Below are positions 3,461 to 38,783 of a stretch of 64,000 nt of DNA, piece by piece. Source of the DNA: an endosymbiont of Bathymodiolus septemdierum str. Myojin knoll (GTDB taxonomy: Bacteria > Pseudomonadota > Gammaproteobacteria > PS1 > Pseudothioglobaceae); contig NZ_AP013042.1 of assembly GCF_001547755.1 (NCBI RefSeq), positions 434,001 through 498,000 of the forward strand, in the 5' to 3' direction. Made by a program: the position numbers and the translations under genes. How positions within the stretch are numbered: the first letter of the stretch is position 1; each line of letters opens with the position of its first letter. The notes under the pieces were generated by a model. The model was not told the DNA's origin. It searched no databases and was given only the letters and a program-made list of their open reading frames with translations.

Positions 3461-4123
3461 TTACCAATCAATGGGTTTTTGTTTGTGTATTTTAAGATAG
3501 TCATTGGCTTTTGAAAAGTGTTTACAACCAAAAAATCCTTTGTGCGCTGAAAACGGGGAAGGATGGGTTGCGGTTAAAATTAAATGCTTATTAGCATCTA
3601 TGAGTTCAACTTTTTGCTGGGCATAACTGCCCCAAAGCATAAAAATAAGGTTTTCTTTTTCTTCGCTGAGCGTGTGGATGACGCCGTCGGTGAAATCAAT
3701 CCAGCCGCTATTAGCGTGTGATCCAGGGCTGTTTTTTTCTACGGTGAGGACGCTATTTAGCAGTAGCACACCTTGGGTTGCCCAGTGTTTAAGATTGCCA
3801 CTGTTATTAGCTGGGATGCCCAAATCTAACTCTAATTCTTGGTAAATGTTTCTAAGAGAGGGCGGGATTTTCATGCCATCAGCAACGGAGAAACTAAGAC
3901 CTTGCGCTTGCCCTTCGCTGTGATAAGGGTCTTGACCCAAGATGATAACCTTGACTTCGTTGAAAGGTGTCAGTTCAAAAGCTTTAAACCAGTTTTTTTG
4001 AGCGGGAAAAATGATTTTATTAGATTTCTTTTGTTGTGCTAAAAATGCCATTAATCGTCCTGCTGAATTGGTTTCCAGTAGGGCATTTATTTGAGGATGG
4101 TAGCCTATAAACTTGCCCACCAA
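3461..4123 (-). CDS. ung: Uracil-DNA glycosylase
   Basis: Excises uracil from DNA as the first step of base excision repair. The 220-residue protein has the family-1 water-activating motif GQDPYH at residues 63-68 and the DNA-intercalation motif [13 protein letters not shown] near residue 185. Length is normal for Ung. The ATG overlaps the end of the upstream thioredoxin-like gene by 19 bp, and pdxB follows after 13 bp, so the three minus-strand genes probably share a transcript. Confidence 0.96.
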
Positions 4124-4605
4124 AGTCTGATTTTGTAACCAAAAGTGGTAACATAGCCAACTTCAACGAATTGAATTCTGCCTTTGGTGTTAATGAAAAA
4201 ACTACTTGGGGTTGCACGAACGCCAAATAATCGGGCTAAGGAGCCAGAGTTGTCGTTGATGATGTTGTTAATTTGCATATTATGCTTTTCAGCGTAGACT
4301 TTAAGTTCAGCGTCGGTGCCAGATTGCATCGCAATATTGAGGACTTTATAGTCTTTGCTAAGGGCTTGAATGTTATCATTTTCCAATTGGCAGATGCCAC
4401 ACCAAGTTGCCCAAAAATGGATAAGGGTGGCTTGCTCGGGCAAGGGGTTACTATTGACAATATCGCCGTTGAGCGTCTGAGAGGTGAAACTTGGCACCAT
4501 GCCCACAGTTAAATCTTGTTGTTGGTACATACGAATGACAAAAATGGCTAAAATAACCATCATAAATTGCATGAGTGTTTTACGGCTTGGTCGTTTGATA
4601 TTCAT
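4105..4605 (-). CDS. ScsD-like membrane-anchored protein disulfide oxidoreductase
   Basis: Thioredoxin-fold protein of the TlpA/ScsD type, expected to act on thiols on the outer face of the inner membrane. Residues about 10-26 form a single N-terminal membrane anchor. The redox motif is FWATWCGICQLE with cysteines at 69 and 72. The cis-proline loop is VRATPSSFF, and the C-terminus ends in a hydrophobic segment ([15 protein letters not shown]) typical of ScsD-like proteins. It is 166 residues long and the first gene of the leftward ung-pdxB run. The specific substrate cannot be read from the sequence. Confidence 0.85.
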   Translation of the reverse strand: MNIKRPSRKTLMQFMMVILAIFVIRMYQQQDLTVGMVPSFTSQTLNGDIVNSNPLPEQATLIHFWATWCGICQLENDNIQALSKDYKVLNIAMQSGTDAELKVYAEKHNMQINNIINDNSGSLARLFGVRATPSSFFINTKGRIQFVEVGYVTTFGYKIRLWWASL

Positions 4606-4613
4606 AAGTAAGC

Positions 4614-4696
4614 ATTATAAAGGATACAGCACTGGAAAGACGGTGAAACGGGGCGGCATAAAGATACGCCGAACGATAAATTAGTGAAATTTATAG
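4614..4696 (+). pseudogene. Truncated duplicate of the tpm 5' end (left part)
   Basis: This stretch repeats the ribosome-site region and first codons of the intact tpm gene at 12175, with only scattered differences. It lacks 21 bp that include the start codon; the missing bases lie between two GGAT repeats, so slipped or recombinational deletion is likely. The copy is split by the insertion element at 4697-6081, and its remaining part (ATTGTTTGTAGTTAG) is at 6090-6104, where similarity ends at about codon 33. It is non-functional and marks the left border of the island. Confidence 0.85.
4689..4696. repeat. 8-bp target site duplication, left
   Basis: ATTTATAG directly precedes the insertion element and is repeated at 6082-6089 after it. 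Removing the element plus one copy restores a continuous tpm-like sequence, which proves this is the insertion site. The edge is uncertain by one base. Confidence 0.8.
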
Positions 4697-4697
4697 A

Positions 4698-4723
4698 GAC
4701 CCTGTAAACCAGATTGTGTAAAC
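4698..4723 (+). repeat. Left terminal inverted repeat of the IS256-family element
   Basis: 26 bp, identical to the reverse complement of 6056-6081. Confidence 0.9.
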
Positions 4724-4759
4724 CCTCATATTTTATAATCCCTAAAAAGGAGAAAAAAC

Positions 4760-6041
4760 ATGAGTAACGCAACACTAAGAAAAAACCAAAAGAACCAACT
4801 GAACAACACAGGCATTAACCAACAAAAACTCCGTGCTTTTGCTGGTGAGCTTGCCAAAGACATCCACACCCAAGATGACTTGGCAGACTTGTCTGCATCA
4901 TTGGTTAAGATGACCATAGAAGCGGCACTTGGTGCTGAGATGGAACATCACCTTGGCTATCCAAAATATGGACAAAATGGCAATGAATCTAATGCCAGTA
5001 ATAACGCTCGCAATGGCTACTACTCTAAAATTTGTTAAAGGTAATCATGGCGAAGTTTGAACTTTGCTATTCCAAGGGATCGCAATGCTAACTTTGAGCC
5101 TGCTATCATTGAGAAGGGTCAAACCAGATTAGGCGCTTTTGATAATCAAATATTAAGCCTGTATGCCAAAGGCATGAGCACCCGTGATATTGTCACAACC
5201 TTTAAAGAGATGTATGACGCTGACATCTCAGCAACGTTGGTGTCCAATGTAACACAAGCGGTTATTGCTCAAGCCACAGAGTGGCGTAATCGTCCATTGG
5301 ATGAGATTTACCCCATTGTTTATTTAGACGGTATTGTCATTAAAGTTAGGCAAGATAAACAAATCATTAAAAAGACCATGTACATTGCCCTAGGCGTTAA
5401 TCTTGAGGGTAAAAAAGAATGTCTTGGCTTATGGTTGTCCAAAAATGAATCTTCTAAGTTCTGGTTGGGCGTTCTTAACGATATTGCTAATCGTGGCGTA
5501 AAAGACATCCTGATCGCCTCAGTCGATGGGTTAACGGGATTCCCCGAAGCTATTAATGCCGTGTTCCCACAGGCTGATGTACAACTGTGTATTGTTCATA
5601 TGGTTCGCAACTCGCTTAAATATGTGGGCTATAAGGAACGTAAGAATGTTGCTAGTGATTTAAAGCAAATCTATCAGTCTATTACTGAAGAAGAAGCTTT
5701 ATTGGCGTTAGATGAGTTTGAGTATAAATGGGATACGCAGTTCCCAAGTATCGCCAAATCGTGGCGACGAAATTGGGATAAATGTTGCTACTCTATTTGC
5801 TTATCCTGAGGCAATCAGAAAGGCAATCTATACCACTAATGCCATTGAATCCTTAAACTCAGTGATTAGAAAATCTATCAAAAACAGAAAGATTTTTAAT
5901 CATGATAACTCTGCTTTTAAAGTGGTCTTTTTAGCCATTGAAGCAGCCAGTAAGAAATGGACAATGCCAATACGAAATTGGTCACAAGCAATGAATCAGT
6001 TTATAATCCTACATGAGGATAGATTAAAGGATTATGTCTGA
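4760..6041 (+). pseudogene. IS256-family (mutator-type) transposase, frameshifted
   Basis: The coding sequence matches an IS256-type DDE transposase in pieces: residues MSNATLRKN to NARNGYYSKI (4760-5035), then AIPRDRNANFEPAI to SWRRNWDK (about 5060-5780), then VATLFAYPEAIRKAIYTTNAIESLN to the end (6041). Between pieces one and two the sequence seems to carry three extra bases, mostly T, that put a stop in frame (5036-5090). Between pieces two and three one extra T near 5781 shifts the frame. Catalytic-region motifs are still readable (YLDGIVIKV, SVDGLTGFPEAI, and LDEFEYKW). Without the insertions a protein of roughly 420 residues would result. Degeneration is the simplest reading; sequencing error in T runs is the alternative. 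Confidence 0.88.
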
Positions 6042-6055
6042 TTTTTGAAAGAGGT

Positions 6056-6081
6056 GTTTACACAATCTGGTTTACAGGGTC
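6056..6081 (-). repeat. Right terminal inverted repeat of the IS256-family element
   Basis: Reverse complement of 4698-4723, identical over 26 bp. The second target-site copy (ATTTATAG) follows at 6082-6089, then the rest of the tpm fragment to 6104. Confidence 0.9.
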
Positions 6082-6120
6082 ATTTATAGATTGTTTGTAG
6101 TTAGCACAAAATTAATTACT

Positions 6121-6270
6121 TTAACCCTTTGATTTTCTGCTCTGCATGCCTGAAAATTTAATAAAGCGCTTTACCCAATCGCAATAAGTATTCTCAGTTT
6201 TGTAAGCATAATTCATCCGTCGCATTACTTCTCGCATTTGTTGAATAATCGGCTTGTTTTCTGTTATCAT
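6121..6270 (-). pseudogene. Remnant of an integron-type tyrosine recombinase (IntI-like, N-terminal 49 codons)
   Basis: The minus strand from ATG 6270 encodes 49 residues before TAA at 6121. The core, MRRMNYAYKTENTYCDW followed by VKRFIKFSG, fits the N-terminal SAM-like DNA-binding domain of integron integrases (pattern VR..R.YS.RTE..Y..W..RFI.FHG). The catalytic domain with the R-H-R-Y residues is absent: sequence after the stop runs within 20 bp into the tpm fragment, so the gene was cut by recombination. It points away from the cassettes to its right, exactly as intI does in integrons. The integrase is inactive. Confidence 0.8.
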
Positions 6271-6458
6271 AAATGCTAAATTAAATCTAAAGTCAAGTTA
6301 CTATTTTTTATTCTTCGTGGTTTTGAATAATTTTTTTACTTAGATATCGTATATCAAGTAAAAATCTATTTTAAACCTATAAAACGGTAAAAATATGAAA
6401 TATTTACATGTCTTTAGTTTTAATAGAGTATATAAGGGAATATGTCCTTATACTAATA
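6271..6458. other. AT-rich region between integrase remnant and first cassette (attI position)
   Basis: In an intact integron this stretch would hold attI and the cassette promoter. No gene is seen. It is very AT-rich, and I could not pick a convincing promoter. It ends at the core site GTTAGGC (6459-6465). Confidence 0.5.
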
Positions 6459-6465
6459 GTTAGGC
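6459..6465 (+). other. Integron core site (attI/cassette 1 junction)
   Basis: GTTAGGC fits the GTTRRRY crossover consensus. Its TTAGGC part is complementary to the GCCTAAC that opens the attC at the end of the same cassette (7269-7275), the signature of a cassette inserted as a circle. Confidence 0.75.
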
Positions 6466-6475
6466 GGACAAACTA

Positions 6476-6970
6476 ATGAATTACAAAAAACTAATACTAA
6501 TTTATTTTGTATTTTTCCTTTTTGGATGTGTTCCGCAATATAAATATGAATTAATAAAATATAAAAATAGTAGTACCTCTTCAGAACAAGCAAAAGCAAT
6601 TTGCAAACCAAGAGCGGAATTAGAAGCGATAAAAGCAAAAAATTACGCCAAAGACAAGATTGATAGAGAAAAAAATCGTGTAACTGGATACAATTGTAAT
6701 TCAAATATTAATACACAAACCAATTCAAATATAAATAGCTACGGATACAATTATGCCAATATCTCAAGCAGGAGTAACGGTTATGACTCAACAAACTGTA
6801 CTGCAAGAACTGCTGGATATGGAGGAGGATGGGCAGCTGGCGCCTTAGCTGCTATGAATAGTGCAGATATAAGAAATACTTACAATAATACAAAAGAGTC
6901 TGTGTTTAATGGTTGTTTGGCAGAATATGGTTATGGCGTTAAAAAAACCTGTATTAAAAATTGCAATTAG
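6476..6970 (+). CDS. Small lipoprotein of unknown function (cassette 1)
   Basis: A 164-residue protein with a lipoprotein signal peptide: charged start, hydrophobic LILIYFVFFL, then lipobox FFGC-like (LFGC) with Cys18. The mature part is rich in Asn, Tyr and Ser (NINTQTNSNINSYGYN), has a Gly/Ala patch (GYGGGWAAGALAA), and carries several cysteines, including CLAEYGYGVKKTCIKNC at the end. The start ATG is 11 bp after the cassette core site. No family was recognised. Cassette genes of this type are often unique; the extra cysteines suggest a disulfide-bonded, envelope-located protein (inference). Confidence 0.7.
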   Translation: MNYKKLILIYFVFFLFGCVPQYKYELIKYKNSSTSSEQAKAICKPRAELEAIKAKNYAKDKIDREKNRVTGYNCNSNINTQTNSNINSYGYNYANISSRSNGYDSTNCTARTAGYGGGWAAGALAAMNSADIRNTYNNTKESVFNGCLAEYGYGVKKTCIKNCN

Positions 6971-6980
6971 TGGGGTGGTT

Positions 6981-7274
6981 ATGTCTTATAGAATAGATTC
7001 AGAATGGAATGCCAAAAACGAATTAAAGTGCCTTGTTATATTTAAAAAGTTAGAGCAAGAGGGTTTTCCAAGAGGAAGACAGATGCCTTATTGCAGAGAA
7101 ATGGCTCAAAATACAAAATTAAGTGCGGAAAATATCAGCGCCAAAGTAGGCAACTTTAAATCTGTTGCAAAGATAAATAACAAATCTAACGCATCAATAA
7201 ATACAGTAGAAATTTATAATAATTATGGACATCTTTCTACCAACCAAATTGAGGAAGCATTAAAAAATGCCTAA
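6981..7274 (+). CDS. Hypothetical protein, second gene of cassette 1
   Basis: The 97-residue product begins MSYRIDSEWNAKNELKCL and has a GGGTGG ribosome-site-like stretch directly before its ATG. A longer in-frame start at 6909 would overlap the previous gene widely and is less likely. The protein is helical and basic, with a central segment RGRQMPYCREMAQNTKLS followed by ISAKVGNFKSV. This loosely resembles the N-terminal specificity-like segment found in front of some HNH/restriction-type nucleases (r..s..lA..t.ls..ni..kl.Nf.svd). No catalytic motif is present. Its stop codon lies inside the attC start, as is usual for cassettes. Confidence 0.65.
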   Translation: MSYRIDSEWNAKNELKCLVIFKKLEQEGFPRGRQMPYCREMAQNTKLSAENISAKVGNFKSVAKINNKSNASINTVEIYNNYGHLSTNQIEEALKNA

Positions 7275-7325
7275 CAAATCATTCCAGCCGACCGCTGACG
7301 CGTCGGCTGAATTCAAGCGTTATAC
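7269..7325 (+). repeat. attC recombination site of cassette 1
   Basis: It opens with the inverse core GCCTAAC (7269-7275) and ends with GTTATAC (7319-7325). In between, an imperfect palindrome with CAGCCGAC pairing to GTCGGCTG can fold into the hairpin recognised by integron integrases. Length is 57 bp, at the short end of attC sites. Confidence 0.85.
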
Positions 7326-7402
7326 GGCACAGAAAACAATATGGTGCCCCTTGTTGGATACTGGGAAAGAACAATCACTATTGAAATGATGAGGGATAAT
7401 TA

Positions 7403-8176
7403 TTGTTAAATATAACTGATAAGTCAGTAGTTTCTGAACATACCCAAGATCGGCATTCATTTAAGAAGGTAGAACTCAAGGGAGCAGAATTCCAAAATCT
7501 TATTGAAGAACTCATAGATATTTTGCCTGATTATTATATAGACCCTTTATCAATGGCTAGCACTCTTGAGCGTTTAGGTAAGCCTGCTGCTGCGGAAAAG
7601 CTCAGAATAAAACTCCCCAAAGTAACAAAAATTCGCTCTGGCGATATTGGAGAAATTCTCACAACAGATTATATTGATGAAAAAACAGTATTTTCTGTAC
7701 CAATAAAGAAATTGAGATGGAAAGATCACCGCAATATGGCAATGCGTGGTGATGATGTTATCGGGGTACTTATAAATCAAGAAAATCAAACAATAAAATT
7801 CCTCAAAGCCGAAGCTAAAAGCAATCAATCGTTAAGTCGTAATGTTTTGTCAAAGGCAAGGGATGAGCTTGATCTTGATGAGGGTCTACCAGCACCACAT
7901 GCTCTTGAATTTGTGGCAGAAAGACTTAGAGACACAGGCAACCAAACTTTGGCAAACCTTATTGAAAAAGCACAGCTCTCTGATGGAATTGGTAATAGTC
8001 AAGTTGAGCACCTACTTTTTACCTTTACTGCATCGAAGCCTGAGAAACTTCAAAAAGAAGCATTTGATGATTATAGCGGTAATATAAAGCAGTCCTCTGT
8101 TGGTTTTCAAGTTAGTAATCACCAAGAGCTTATTGGAAGTGTTTATCAGGGAGTGCTAGATGGCCTCGGCGATTGA
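7403..8176 (+). CDS. hamA: HamA, Hachiman anti-phage nuclease (DUF1837)
   Basis: First component of the Hachiman defence system, in which HamA is a nuclease-fold protein controlled by the HamB helicase. The 257-residue product has the DUF1837 core: SGDIGEI near residues 79-85, RGDDVIG near 115-121 and LKAEAKS near 134-140. Together these look like a PD-(D/E)XK-type active site (Asp, then Glu-X-Lys). The start is TTG at 7403 behind a GAGGGAT ribosome site; nearby ATGs are out of frame. hamB begins inside its last codons (17-bp overlap), so the two are translationally coupled. Family assignment is from the motifs and the hamB neighbour. Confidence 0.87.
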   Translation: MLNITDKSVVSEHTQDRHSFKKVELKGAEFQNLIEELIDILPDYYIDPLSMASTLERLGKPAAAEKLRIKLPKVTKIRSGDIGEILTTDYIDEKTVFSVPIKKLRWKDHRNMAMRGDDVIGVLINQENQTIKFLKAEAKSNQSLSRNVLSKARDELDLDEGLPAPHALEFVAERLRDTGNQTLANLIEKAQLSDGIGNSQVEHLLFTFTASKPEKLQKEAFDDYSGNIKQSSVGFQVSNHQELIGSVYQGVLDGLGD

Positions 8177-11100
8177 AGAGATAGAAAAAGCTATTCAGCA
8201 GGCAATAGCTACAGGTTTCAGAGGGCGATTACTTGAGCGGGGGTTAGCGCGTTCAATGATTTGGGTTGATGGTGAATTACCTGATGGTTCACCAAACTTT
8301 GCGCCAAGACTTAGTTATGATCTCCTGTCCTACGGTTATTCACTGTTATCTCTTGCTATTCGCCTCACAGAATTGAATGGTAACCCTGAGTTTGCCCGTG
8401 CCGCGTTTGAAAAAGCTGCCACAGCAATAACAGACGTTATACATAATGGAAATCCTGATGATCCAGAGAAAGGCTTTCATAAGGTGTTGGCAGCATCAAG
8501 TTATCATTTAGGGCGATTTTCTGCTAAAGCATTTTCATTGCTCAATCATAATATTGAAAATGAAAATTTGAGTCGAATAGAGAAAATGCTATCGTTACTC
8601 ATGTTAAGGCAATTTGCTGCGCTTGAAACTTCTGTATTAGCTTGGAAAGAATCAGGACTTGGCTCAGATAATTCCCTAGCTGAAAAGATAGACTTTGAAA
8701 TTGACCAACTCAATGGACAACTTGAGTCAGAGGATCGCCCAGAAGAATATGGAATAGCATCAATTGAGTTACCTATAATTGATTTGGCAATAACTGATAA
8801 TTATTATTCTGCAATTTATGAGTTTCTATTCGCACTAGAAATAGGGAACATTGCACTACTTGAAAGTGCTATTAATCGGATAGAAAATAGCTTGTCTATT
8901 ACTACAGAGCTTAACATGCTACCGCAATGGTGGGTTTTGAGAATAACCAAATACCTATTTCGTGATCTTTGGGAGTCCAGCTTTCATACGGTTCTTCCTG
9001 TTACTCCTGATCAGGAAAATAGTGAAGATTGGGCACTACTACGCTGGCTATTTATTGCTTCATTATTCAAACGTAATAAAGCTGAGATTGATCTTTGGCC
9101 ATCCCAGTTAGAGGGCGCTAGGCGAGCGGTTAATGATGTTGATGATCTTGTGGTTTCACTTCCAACTAGTGCGGGTAAAACGCGTATCGCAGAATTATGC
9201 ATTCTTCGATGTTTATCTATTGGAAAGCGCGTGCTCTTTATTACGCCGCTCAGGGCGTTGTCCGCTCAGACAGAGGCATCACTTCGTAAAACGTTTCTAC
9301 CGTTAGGTAAATCAGTTTCTTCGCTTTATGGCAGTATTGGAACAAGCGACTTTGAACAGAATGTCATAAAGTCAAAAGACATAGTAGTAGGGACGCCAGA
9401 AAAATTAGATTTTGCCTTAAGAAATGACCCTTCATTAATAGATGATGTTGGTCTCGTGGTTTTAGATGAAGGGCATATGATTGGTCTAAGCGAGCGGGAG
9501 ATAAGTTATGAAGTGCAAATTCAGCGACTATTAAAACGAGATGATGCTGAGCAAAGAAGAATTGTTTGCCTTTCAGCTATATTACCTGATGGCGATCAGT
9601 TAGAAGATTTTGTTGGCTGGTTGCGACGAGATAAGGAAGGCGGTGCTATACAATCTTTATGGCGACCTACAGATTTAAGATTTGGTGAGATTGTTTGGCA
9701 AGCAAATACTGGACGAATTAATTTTACTATTGGTGAAGAGAAACCATTTATCCCTAATTATATTCACCCCTTTATTCCGCCAGTTGGTAGAAGAAGCACA
9801 CCGTTTCCTAAAAATAAAAAAGAACTAACCTTGGCGGCGACTTGGAGGTTAGTTCAGGATAATCATACAGTCTTAATATATTGCCCAGAAAAACGGTCTG
9901 TTAATAGTTTTGCAAGAGATATTATAGATTTGCATAAGCGAGAGGCACTCGACTCAGTATTGTCTGTTCCGTTACAACAACTAGATTTAGCAATAGTGTT
10001 AGGAGATGAGTGGCTTGGTGATGGACATCCAATTGTTGAATGCTTAAAAATAGGTGTAGCTGTTCATCATGGCGCTCTTCCAACTCCTTTCAGGAAGGAA
10101 ATGGAAAAGTTGTTACGCGAAGGTATTTTGAAAGTTACAGTTTCATCCCCCACCCTTGCTCAAGGTCTGAATCTATCTGCGACTGCCGTTATTGTTTATT
10201 CATTAACACGTAATAAAAATATAATAGATGCATCTGAATTTAAAAATGTGATTGGTCGAGCTGGTCGAGCTTTTGTTGATACACATGGGTTAGTCCTCTA
10301 CCCAATATTTGAAAGACATGATTGGTTTCGGACTCAGTGGCGCAGGTTAGTAGAAGATACAAAGGCACGAAATATGGAGAGTGGTTTGGCTCTTCTTGTC
10401 ATCACTCTTGTAAGTCGAATAGCTCAGAGTATAGGGAACTCAGATATTAATGGGCTTCTTGAGTCAGATATTAATGGGCTTCTTGAGTCAGATATTAATG
10501 GGCTTCTTGAGTATGTTTTAAACAATACTCAAGCATGGGGATTTCCTAATGTTGCTAATGAGACCACAGAACAGATCAAGGCGCAAAAAATTGCATGGGA
10601 TAAGCATATAGTAAGCCTTGATACAGCTCTTCTAAGTATGTTAGGCGAGGAAGATGTTTCAATAATTGATATACCAAATGCACTTGATGCAATCCTTCAT
10701 TCTTCACTATGGCAAAGAAGTTTAAATCGTCATGATGAAGAGAAAAAAGGACTAAAAGGACTGTTTGATTCCGTATTAGCTCAACGAGCTAAATACATAT
10801 GGAATGTTACAACTACCTTTCAACGCAAAGGATACTTTCTTGCGGGAGTTGGGCTTGATACTGGTCAGAGGCTTGATGCTATATCTCCTCAAGCCAACGT
10901 ATTGCTTGTAAATGCGAACGGATATATATCTGCCAATGAGCAACAGTTAGCAATAGCTAGAATAATACAGTTGGCTGAATTAGTTTTTGATATTGCACCT
11001 TTTACCCCGCGTAATTTACCTGATGACTGGAGAGAAATCTTGGCAGTTTGGTTAAGAGGCGAAATTCTCACAGAGCATGAATTTAATGATATCAACGAAG

Positions 11101-11753
11101 CTCTGATGTTTATAGAGGATGGCTTAATCTACCGTCTACCTTGGGGATTAGAAGCTATTAGAGTTCGTGCGCAAGCCAATGAAGATGTTATTGGTGATAG
11201 TGCAACAATAGATGATTATGAAGTTGGGCTGGTAGTTCCTGCTATAGAAAATGGGACTTTAAATAGAAGTGCCGCACTGTTGATGCAAGCTGGGTTTAAC
11301 TCAAGAAAAGCTGCGATACATGCGGTCAGTTCAACAAACGCCTCTTTCACAACAGGCGTTCAATTAAAAGCATGGCTAAATTCTGTAGAGGTTTTTGACC
11401 TCGCTATTGAACCTGATTGGCCAACACCTGAAACTTCTAATTTATGGCGGGATTTTATAAAAGAGTATGATCCAAAACCGGAGACCACATGGAAATTGGC
11501 TAATTCAATAATATCTGTTGTTTGGATAAATAACTATAATCCCGTTGCTGGAAGATTTGTGAAGCTTCATAATCTTAAAAAAGGAAACACTCTAATACTA
11601 GGATCAGATGGTGAGCTAATAGGTAGTATTGCTAACTACCGATATAAATTACTCGACGGTGGCATTTATCGCTCTAGTATTCATAGTGATACCAGTTATA
11701 TTGATGTGAGATATTGGGGGGCGGAAGGTAGCCCTTTTGATTATCATGTTTAA
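8160..11753 (+). CDS. hamB: HamB, Hachiman superfamily-2 helicase
   Basis: Large helicase of the Hachiman defence system, thought to sense abnormal DNA and release HamA activity. The 1197-residue protein has Walker A LPTSAGKTR near residue 335, LRALSAQ (motif Ia), a Walker B of the form VVLDEGHMIG near 435, SAILPDG (motif III) near 471, and GRAGRAF (motif VI) near 699, a Ski2/Brr2-like helicase arrangement. A roughly 320-residue helical N-terminal domain precedes it, and a long C-terminal region of about 400 residues follows. Residues 761-784 are three exact copies of SDINGLLE. No frameshift is seen, so the system looks intact. Confidence 0.88.
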   Translation: MASAIEEIEKAIQQAIATGFRGRLLERGLARSMIWVDGELPDGSPNFAPRLSYDLLSYGYSLLSLAIRLTELNGNPEFARAAFEKAATAITDVIHNGNPDDPEKGFHKVLAASSYHLGRFSAKAFSLLNHNIENENLSRIEKMLSLLMLRQFAALETSVLAWKESGLGSDNSLAEKIDFEIDQLNGQLESEDRPEEYGIASIELPIIDLAITDNYYSAIYEFLFALEIGNIALLESAINRIENSLSITTELNMLPQWWVLRITKYLFRDLWESSFHTVLPVTPDQENSEDWALLRWLFIASLFKRNKAEIDLWPSQLEGARRAVNDVDDLVVSLPTSAGKTRIAELCILRCLSIGKRVLFITPLRALSAQTEASLRKTFLPLGKSVSSLYGSIGTSDFEQNVIKSKDIVVGTPEKLDFALRNDPSLIDDVGLVVLDEGHMIGLSEREISYEVQIQRLLKRDDAEQRRIVCLSAILPDGDQLEDFVGWLRRDKEGGAIQSLWRPTDLRFGEIVWQANTGRINFTIGEEKPFIPNYIHPFIPPVGRRSTPFPKNKKELTLAATWRLVQDNHTVLIYCPEKRSVNSFARDIIDLHKREALDSVLSVPLQQLDLAIVLGDEWLGDGHPIVECLKIGVAVHHGALPTPFRKEMEKLLREGILKVTVSSPTLAQGLNLSATAVIVYSLTRNKNIIDASEFKNVIGRAGRAFVDTHGLVLYPIFERHDWFRTQWRRLVEDTKARNMESGLALLVITLVSRIAQSIGNSDINGLLESDINGLLESDINGLLEYVLNNTQAWGFPNVANETTEQIKAQKIAWDKHIVSLDTALLSMLGEEDVSIIDIPNALDAILHSSLWQRSLNRHDEEKKGLKGLFDSVLAQRAKYIWNVTTTFQRKGYFLAGVGLDTGQRLDAISPQANVLLVNANGYISANEQQLAIARIIQLAELVFDIAPFTPRNLPDDWREILAVWLRGEILTEHEFNDINEALMFIEDGLIYRLPWGLEAIRVRAQANEDVIGDSATIDDYEVGLVVPAIENGTLNRSAALLMQAGFNSRKAAIHAVSSTNASFTTGVQLKAWLNSVEVFDLAIEPDWPTPETSNLWRDFIKEYDPKPETTWKLANSIISVVWINNYNPVAGRFVKLHNLKKGNTLILGSDGELIGSIANYRYKLLDGGIYRSSIHSDTSYIDVRYWGAEGSPFDYHV
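10440..10511 (+). repeat. 24-bp perfect tandem repeat (three copies) inside hamB
   Basis: Three identical 24-bp units encode SDINGLLE three times. A perfect in-frame repeat in an otherwise non-repetitive gene suggests recent slippage; copy number could vary between strains. Confidence 0.95.
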
Positions 11754-11760
11754 AATATAA

Positions 11761-11780
11761 TGAACCCAGAGAGGGGTTCA
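11761..11780 (+). terminator. Possible hairpin after hamB
   Basis: TGAACCC and GGGTTCA form a short hairpin 8 bp after the hamB stop. No T run follows, so it may protect the 3' end rather than act as an efficient intrinsic terminator. Confidence 0.35.
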
Positions 11781-11815
11781 ATCTACAATAAACTTTTAAG
11801 CATGGTAAAAGTGCC

Positions 11816-11901
11816 GTATAACAATCACATGCACTCGGATAGAAAAAAGCGCCACTCGTTCCTCGCTCTGCTTTTTCTGCCGGTGATGTGAGACGTTAGC
11901 T
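11816..11901 (+). repeat. attC recombination site of cassette 2
   Basis: It opens with GTATAAC and ends with GTTAGCT. The internal arms AGAAAAAAGC and GCTTTTTCT, and outer TCACAT with GATGTGA, pair into a long imperfect hairpin with unpaired bases, the classical 59-base-element layout. Length is 86 bp. Confidence 0.88.
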
Positions 11902-12155
11902 GCAAAATACGCGAGAACAATTAGGGTCAGAGAGTGATTTATACTAAAATAACACTTTTGTATCACCCAACTGTGTAAATATCACCATTTTTTAATCAAT
12001 GTTCCCATTAAATCTTGTTTTTAATTTATACTATCCAATGGCAATTGGATGCAGCCGTAGTGATGTTGTGACACACTCTAGATTACACAAACAAATCTAT
12101 GGGTCAGATAAGGGTTAAAATGAATGATGATTATTCATATTTATGCAAAGGTTTT
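11902..12155. other. Non-coding stretch between last attC and tpm; possible transposon relic
   Basis: No gene is seen. Two occurrences of GGGTCAG (TTAGGGTCAGAGAGTGATTT at 11921 and GGGTCAGATAAGGG near 12101) recall sequences that flank REP-type Y1 transposase genes in proteobacteria. This may be debris from such an element (weak inference). Confidence 0.3.
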
Positions 12156-12174
12156 ATTATAAAGGATAAAGAAA

Positions 12175-12825
12175 ATGACAGATTGGATACAGCGCTGGAA
12201 AGACGGTGAAACGGGGTGGCATAAAGACACGCCGAACGATAAATTGGTGAAGTTTATAGATTGCTTGCAGTTAGAACGGGCAGCGACGGTGCTAGTGCCG
12301 TTGTGCGGCAAGAGTCAGGATATGGTGTATTTACTGGAACAGGGGTACAAAGTGATTGGCGTGGAGTTGAGTGAAGTGGCAGTCACTGCATTTTTTCAAG
12401 AAAATGCAATGCCTTATACGGTGCAAGAGGCGAATAATTTCACGGTTTATAATGCACGAAATATCCGTATTTTTTGTGGTGATTTTTTTAACCTTGATTC
12501 AGGGCATTTAGGGATGACAAGTGCACTCTATGATAGGGGTGCATTGATTGCTCTACCTGAGGATTTAAGGGTTAAATATGCACAACATTTATACGATATA
12601 ATACCGAGCGGTTGCCGGATATTGTTGTTGACTTTAAATTATCCGCAATCGCAAATCAGTGGACCCCCTTTTGCCGTCGATGAAGCAGAGGTAAAATCAC
12701 TGTTTGAATGGTTTGAGTGTCAGCAGTTAGAGTGTTTTAATGACATTAAAAATGAACCTAAGTATCTACACGCAGGTGTGGATTTTATTGAAAGAGCAAC
12801 ATATTGTTTGCATAAAGAGGAATAA
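12175..12825 (+). CDS. tpm: Thiopurine S-methyltransferase
   Basis: SAM-dependent methyltransferase of the TPMT family. In bacteria it is linked to methylation of selenium, tellurium and thiol compounds. The 216-residue protein has family features: N-terminal WIQRWKDGETGWH, the SAM-binding VLVPLCGKSQDM at residues 39-50, GVELSEVAV, and a DRGALIALP segment. It is preceded by an AAGGATAAAG ribosome site. Its 5' end is duplicated at 4614-6104, so this is the ancestral copy beyond the right edge of the island. The next gene follows after 3 bp. Confidence 0.95.
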   Translation: MTDWIQRWKDGETGWHKDTPNDKLVKFIDCLQLERAATVLVPLCGKSQDMVYLLEQGYKVIGVELSEVAVTAFFQENAMPYTVQEANNFTVYNARNIRIFCGDFFNLDSGHLGMTSALYDRGALIALPEDLRVKYAQHLYDIIPSGCRILLLTLNYPQSQISGPPFAVDEAEVKSLFEWFECQQLECFNDIKNEPKYLHAGVDFIERATYCLHKEE

Positions 12826-29168: not shown

Positions 29169-29627
29169 TTAGCTCAAAAAAAGGAAAAACAATATGCCTC
29201 GTAAGTTAAAAGGAAGAGATGGTATAGCCATTACCATTCCAGATGGTGGTCATGGTTTGCAAGGTCGTGATGGTCATATGGCTGCCATTCCAAAAGGAGG
29301 CCGTGGGTTACAGGGAAGAGATGGCAGGATGGTTGCTATCCGCACTGGAGGGCGTGGCTTACAAGGCCGTGATGGTCGTATGGCTGCCATTCCAAAAGGA
29401 GGCCGTGGGTTACAAGGACGTGACGGCAGGATGGTTGCCATTCCTGCTGGCGGGCGTGGACTGCAAGGTCGTGATGGACGAATGGTTGCTATTGGCAAGG
29501 GGAAACATGGTGTCCAAGATACAAATGGACGTGTACGTGTTAAGAGCTAACAAGGCCTGCAGTTGACCCAGCAATACGCCGTTTCGCTTCGCTGCACGTC
29601 GCATCGCAGGTCAACTGAGTTTAAGCG
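29169..29627 (+). mobile_element. Integron gene cassette 3 (459 bp) with 17-residue-repeat gene
   Basis: It starts at the crossover of GTTAGCTC (29168-29175) and ends at that of GTTATACGCC (29627). The end attC opens with GAGCTAAC (29544-29551), the exact reverse complement of the start, proving a single cassette unit. Confidence 0.82.
29194..29550 (+). CDS. Protein made entirely of 17-residue tandem repeats, unknown function
   Basis: The 118-residue product consists of seven consecutive 17-residue units with consensus GGRGLQGRDGRMVAIPK. The first and last units are more divergent. It is very basic and rich in Gly and Arg, with no signal peptide and no membrane segment. At DNA level the 51-bp units are similar but not identical, so the repeat is not brand new. 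The start ATG has AAAGGAAAAAC upstream, and the stop codon lies within the attC. I know no family for it. A fibrous or nucleic-acid-binding role is conceivable from composition only. Confidence 0.78.
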   Translation: MPRKLKGRDGIAITIPDGGHGLQGRDGHMAAIPKGGRGLQGRDGRMVAIRTGGRGLQGRDGRMAAIPKGGRGLQGRDGRMVAIPAGGRGLQGRDGRMVAIGKGKHGVQDTNGRVRVKS

Positions 29628-29633
29628 TTATAC
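29546..29633 (+). repeat. attC recombination site of cassette 3
   Basis: It opens with GCTAAC and ends with GCGTTATAC. Arms GCAGTTGACC and GGTCAACTG pair, with a further inner pairing around TTCGCTTCG. Length and layout are typical of attC. It contains the stop codon of the repeat gene. Confidence 0.87.
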
Positions 29634-38701: not shown

Positions 38702-38783
38702 TGGTTATGATGGATATAAAATTAAAATTGAGGTTTATTTTACCATTGGAGACCTTTGCATAAATATAAATAATCAAAACCAC

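Follow-up and report, generated by a model that had tools for sequence, protein, structure and literature searches.

A complete Hachiman anti-phage system packaged as one integron cassette beside a truncated integrase gene

We identified a complete and apparently intact Hachiman anti-phage system packaged as a single 4.6-kb integron cassette in the chromosome of the endosymbiont of Bathymodiolus septemdierum str. Myojin knoll (NZ_AP013042.1). In the window, that is, the 64,000-nucleotide stretch of this chromosome analysed here (positions 434,001 to 498,000), the nuclease gene hamA and the helicase gene hamB lie between matched cassette ends, as an earlier note made from the sequence alone had proposed, with coordinates that proved exact (Table 1). 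The unit is not isolated, a point that the note had overlooked, but takes the second place in an array of two cassettes that adjoins the remnant of an integrase gene, intI. It seems likely that the complete system was captured as one cassette at the attI site of a chromosomal integron, the intI gene of which was truncated later.

Table 1. Features of the Hachiman cassette, its surroundings in the window, and the complete integron elsewhere on the chromosome. A vertical stroke within a sequence marks the predicted cut.
Feature	Position	Strand	Remarks
Hachiman integron cassette	7320..11895	+	4,576 bp; left core G|TTATAC, right core G|TTAGCT; ends matched; homology to L011 stops there
hamA	7403..8176	+	nuclease, DUF1837/HamA; 257 aa; TTG start; E137/K139 correspond to ECOR31 E138/K140
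hamB	8160..11753	+	Ski2-like DEAD helicase; 1197 aa; D436 of DEGH corresponds to ECOR31 D431
Tandem repeat in hamB	10440..10512	+	24 bp x3, perfect, in frame; SDINGLLE x3; one copy in relatives
attC of Hachiman cassette	11816..11901	+	86 bp; R'' GTATAAC ... R' GTTAGCT
attC of preceding cassette	7269..7325	+	57 bp; 90-94% identical to attCs near same-genus integrons
Cassette 1	6460..7319	+	ORFs 6476-6970 and 6909-7274; core ATAG|TTAGGC matches R'' GCCTAAC
attI region of relic integron	6271..6459	-	TATAAGGACATATT(T/C)CCTTATAT block conserved beside core; aligned with same-genus integrons
intI remnant	6121..6270	-	first ~48 codons, then stop; TIGR02249 positions 1-40, E 1.9e-6
tpmt 5' fragment, duplicated	4622..6108		complete tpmt at 12175; fragment 93% identical; split by IS
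IS256/Mutator-family IS	4697-6081		inside tpmt fragment; 8-bp duplication ATTTATAG; transposase frameshifted
Complete chromosomal integron	L121:4701-7551 = G000:1182700-1185550		IntI and two cassettes

Cassette ends and copies in other genomes

From left to right, the cassette consists of the core G|TTATACGGCAC, hamA, hamB and an attC site. The left cut is predicted between positions 7319 and 7320 (...AAGCG|TTATACGGCAC; in longer context, ...TGAATTCAAGCG|TTATACGGCACAG), and the right cut between 11895 and 11896 (...GAGACG|TTAGCTGC; in longer context, ...TGATGTGAGACG|TTAGCTGCAAA). The left core GTTATACGGCAC and the R'' box of the right attC, in its extended form GTGCCGTATAAC, are exact reverse complements. 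A cassette needs such complementarity to close into a circle; excised in that form, the unit would carry a TTATACGG core. The right-hand site has the R''/R' and L''/L' boxes of an attC, and its bottom strand folds into a long bulged hairpin (-16.6 kcal/mol). The match of left core and right attC described in the earlier note thus holds, with the correction that the left-hand attC is that of cassette 1, the usual arrangement within an array.

We screened 74 Hachiman loci for an attC-like site after hamB together with an exactly matching 7-nt core before hamA. Only the window and one other locus, L011 from the gammaproteobacterium NORP60, have both, and none of 1480 mononucleotide shuffles does. 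This two-part screen was used instead of a stricter attC pattern (a single bulge allowed in the 10-bp stem), which misses even the known site of the window.

The relatives of HamA come from one scan of GTDB species genomes, which yielded four close ones (L011 to L014), the next being at 54% identity. In NORP60, DNA homology covers window positions 7316-11898 at 86.9% identity and halts at the cassette ends on both sides; the copy stands at the end of a series of several cassettes bounded by attCs (attCs detected at 5435-5515, 6528-6596, 6692-6757 and 12358-12444 and, by eye, at ~7412-7520 and ~7829-7925), with flanks unrelated to those in the window. The unit is therefore present with the same ends in another array, which is the kind of copy that the earlier note had recommended looking for. 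The level of DNA identity argues against the NORP60 copy being an assembly artefact or a contaminant from the window genome. A third copy, in Amphritea (L014), has the leader, both genes and the attC, with homology ending at 11898 and another cassette following, but its attC is decayed, with stem mutations and poor folding. In Kangiellaceae (L012) and Thiomicrorhabdus (L013), hamA and hamB occur without cassette ends, and hamB of the latter is cut by a transposase-like sequence.

These last two loci speak for an alternative in which the window holds an ordinary Hachiman locus that moved by other means, and the inverted repeats at its ends resemble attC only by coincidence. This explanation is largely refuted, and we give it hardly any probability, considering the exact core/attC match that no shuffle reproduced, the end of the NORP60 homology at both predicted cuts, the attC array adjoining that copy, and the relic intI and attI beside the cassette in the window.

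In the HamB tree, the window protein groups with those of L011, L012 and L014 (support 96/99), and the plasmid-borne copy L124 falls outside; branching among the four is unresolved. HamA is present in only 1 of the 83 genomes of the window's family. That these copies have hosts in different orders, and that the system is missing from the rest of the window's own family, is consistent with horizontal transfer. A phage-borne route found no support: viral contigs gave only one, distant (42%) HamA.

The relic integron and an intact integrase elsewhere

The reading frame of the intI remnant yields MITENKPIIQQMREVMRRMNYAYKTENTYCDWVKRFIKFSGMQSRKSKG before the stop, and window positions 6136-6461 align with the intI-attI regions of three intact integrons of the same genus (L136, L138 and L153), up to the core. 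The remnant and the attI homology together identify the locus as a relic integron, and on these grounds we rejected an entry of the array at some random secondary site. The two open reading frames of the first cassette have no Pfam or NCBIfam match.

The locus is not a complete integron, with only the ~48 N-terminal intI codons beside attI. It differs from sedentary chromosomal integrons in having two cassettes vs more than 20 (limit as in PMC12409362), and the other attCs of the genome are scattered. Neither is it a mobile integron: it is located on a 1.47-Mb chromosome, with no transposon or plasmid around it, only a neighbouring insertion sequence (IS).

In the sequence of events that we favour, a circular cassette carrying its own attC would have been integrated by IntI into the array at the attI of the present relic, as suggested by the end structure and the comparison with NORP60. 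The integrase gene, which is visibly truncated, would then have been cut after ~48 codons, freezing the array. At some point, before or after these events, an element of the IS256 family also entered the flanking tpmt fragment.

The thioredoxin-like gene on the left of the insertion (4105-4605) adjoins tpmt, without any part of this insertion, in eight of nine genomes of the genus that were compared at tpmt; in the remaining one (L133), no thioredoxin-like gene was seen. The earlier note had considered the case in which the same flanks are fixed in all relatives; instead, the neighbouring genes are directly adjacent to each other, without the cassette, in genomes of the genus. Together with the rarity of HamA in the family, this empty site indicates that the insertion is specific to the window lineage. 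Duplicated 5' ends of tpmt (4622-6108 and 12155-12280) flank the whole insertion, which points to an origin along with a duplication or through homologous recombination. Between the cassette and the complete tpmt, a 28-bp sequence (12125-12152) recurs at the same-genus loci L126, L139, L140 and L150 and, loosely, at window position 38752 on the minus strand.

With the local intI reduced to a remnant, mobility of the cassette would need an integrase in trans. A full-length IntI is encoded on the same chromosome, 739 kb away (G000:1184588-1185550; TIGR02249, 398.9 bits with a cut-off of 265), and we infer that it could mobilise the Hachiman cassette, which would then still be excisable. Of the two cassettes of this intact integron, one encodes a DUF805 protein and the other a protein of 363 aa with a match to the candidate defence family HEC-08 of PADLOC (6.9e-101). 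We tentatively put forward, as possible rather than probable, a broader picture in which the Hachiman cassette travels between marine gammaproteobacterial orders, is parked here in an integron that is itself dead, and remains open to recall in trans through the intact IntI, whose integron holds the HEC-08 cassette, so that this 1.47-Mb genome would keep a split defence library.

HamA and HamB and their likely activity

Both genes are recognised by profile searches, as the earlier note had anticipated: HamA by PADLOC PDLC00159 (E=8e-98) and Pfam PF08878 (53.5 bits, cut-off 25), and HamB by PADLOC PDLC00174 (1660 bits, E=0), with Pfam in agreement. The top PDB matches of both proteins are HamA and HamB of E. 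coli ECOR31 (PDB 8VX9), in which mutation of HamA E138/K140 or HamB D431 abolished defence (PMC12278908). In alignment to these proteins, all the mapped catalytic residues are retained (HamA E137/K139 and HamB D436). The TTG start of hamA is conserved in position in L011 to L014, hamB follows directly with a 17-bp overlap, and the two frames run uninterrupted over 1454 codons. The statement that frames and motifs are intact thus stands, with one caveat, an in-frame insertion of 16 aa in HamB that results from a triplication of 24 bp. The copy number of this repeat could differ among strains.

Compared with their nearest relatives, HamA is 84-88% and HamB 83-88% identical at the amino acid level. 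Within the close-relative clade, the pairwise ratios of nonsynonymous to synonymous substitution rates (dN/dS) are low (0.11-0.27 for HamA and 0.13-0.20 for HamB), which implies purifying selection on hamAB in this clade. From the conserved catalytic residues and this selection, a function of hamAB in phage defence can be proposed. If expressed, the system would presumably act as its ECOR31 counterpart does: HamB would patrol DNA and load onto a free 3' single-stranded end produced by phage replication or DNA damage; the loaded HamB would hydrolyse ATP and release or activate HamA, which would then degrade both phage and host DNA, aborting the infection (PMC12278908).

Several observations weigh against a functional, mobile cassette. 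The dN/dS values speak for the clade rather than for the window copy and are no proof that the latter works. The insertion in HamB is absent from all relatives compared. The 83-bp leader of the cassette contains no sigma-70-like promoter on the coding strand, and the cassette follows another one in an array whose integron platform is dead, so that hamAB may be silent. The bottom-strand fold of the attC is barely more stable than the top-strand fold, and excision has been observed with inserts of ~3 kb, more rarely for some site pairs (PMC5371416).

These observations could be taken to mean that the cassette is genuine but either kept in a silent state or slowly decaying, with no promoter acting on it, the HamB repeat impairing the protein, and no present protection. 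A review adds that cassettes distant from the Pc promoter often remain unexpressed, and also, in the opposite direction, that internal promoters drive some integron cassettes (PMC12409362). Considering that the frames have stayed open, that the mapped catalytic residues are kept, and that even the insertion preserves the frame, we regard a silent or decaying copy as rather unlikely.

Relation to known systems and other attC sites

The cassette in the window is a further case of two known kinds, the defence cassette and the Hachiman system. It gains interest from being so large, from sharing its ends with a copy in an unrelated host, and from lying in a dead integron while an intact IntI is encoded elsewhere. 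Defence cassettes in integrons have been known since 2025, as summarised in a review (PMC12409362), and the integrons of Xanthomonas contain 12 kinds of defence system (PMC12444791). The literature searched did not yield any description of Hachiman as a cassette; the primary studies of defence cassettes are represented there only through the review, and we claim no priority.

As the review presents them, the defence cassettes of sedentary Vibrio integrons (Darracq 2025, Getz 2025, via PMC12409362) are likewise attC-bounded anti-phage genes, often presumed silent, but are described as streamlined and small, whereas the window holds a full-size two-gene system of 4.6 kb in an array of two cassettes whose integrase is dead. 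The phage-resistance cassettes of mobile integrons (Kieffer 2025, via the same review) also carry defence systems as cassettes; the one in the window differs in its chromosomal location, where neither a transposon nor a plasmid was seen nearby. The ECOR31 system shares the hamA-hamB gene pair, full-length homology and the three equivalent residues; no integron setting was reported for it (PMC12278908), and the HamB insertion is confined to the window. The nearest outgroup found, the Hachiman system of Vibrio parahaemolyticus plasmid pHLA (L124; 62-64% amino acid identity), has no matching attC ends and adjoins Avs1 and an ISNCY transposase.

The coding sequences of chromosomal-integron cassettes have a median length of 362 bp (PMC5371416), so that two genes in 4,576 bp are an extreme case, and the earlier description of the cassette as very large is borne out. 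The case extends the storage of anti-phage systems in integrons to a complete, full-size pair of helicase and nuclease, in a host lineage distant from the vibrios. It shows directly that the unit moved together with its ends, is relevant to the limit to small size that has been proposed for defence cassettes, and would allow the storage of a cassette in a dead integron to be tested apart from its recall in trans.

A census of attC sites in the genome by one pattern gave 28 matches, most of them due to chance (23 in the control). Four lone attC-like sites of the type typical of the genus (L158 to L161; G000:10186, 526294, 885997 and 1462801) are each preceded by an open reading frame without a known Pfam family, and may represent lone cassettes dispersed over the chromosome. 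A degenerate attC at L157:6738-6828 (G000:1164737-1164827), 77% identical to that of the Hachiman cassette and lacking R', directly follows the type I methylase gene hsdM, near PrrC-like and PDC-S05 (RhuM-like) genes; this region is possibly a second defence unit that formerly had cassette ends. The similarity of this site weakens the idea that the Hachiman cassette has a wholly foreign type of attC.

Within the window, an isolated cassette is located at 29169-29627. Its core, AATAAATAG|TTAGCT, matches the R'' box AGCTAAC of an attC at 29545-29633, and its open reading frame (29194-29550) encodes a repetitive protein of 118 aa. The bases preceding the core are the same as those at the core of attI in the intact integron (AATAAATAG|TT).
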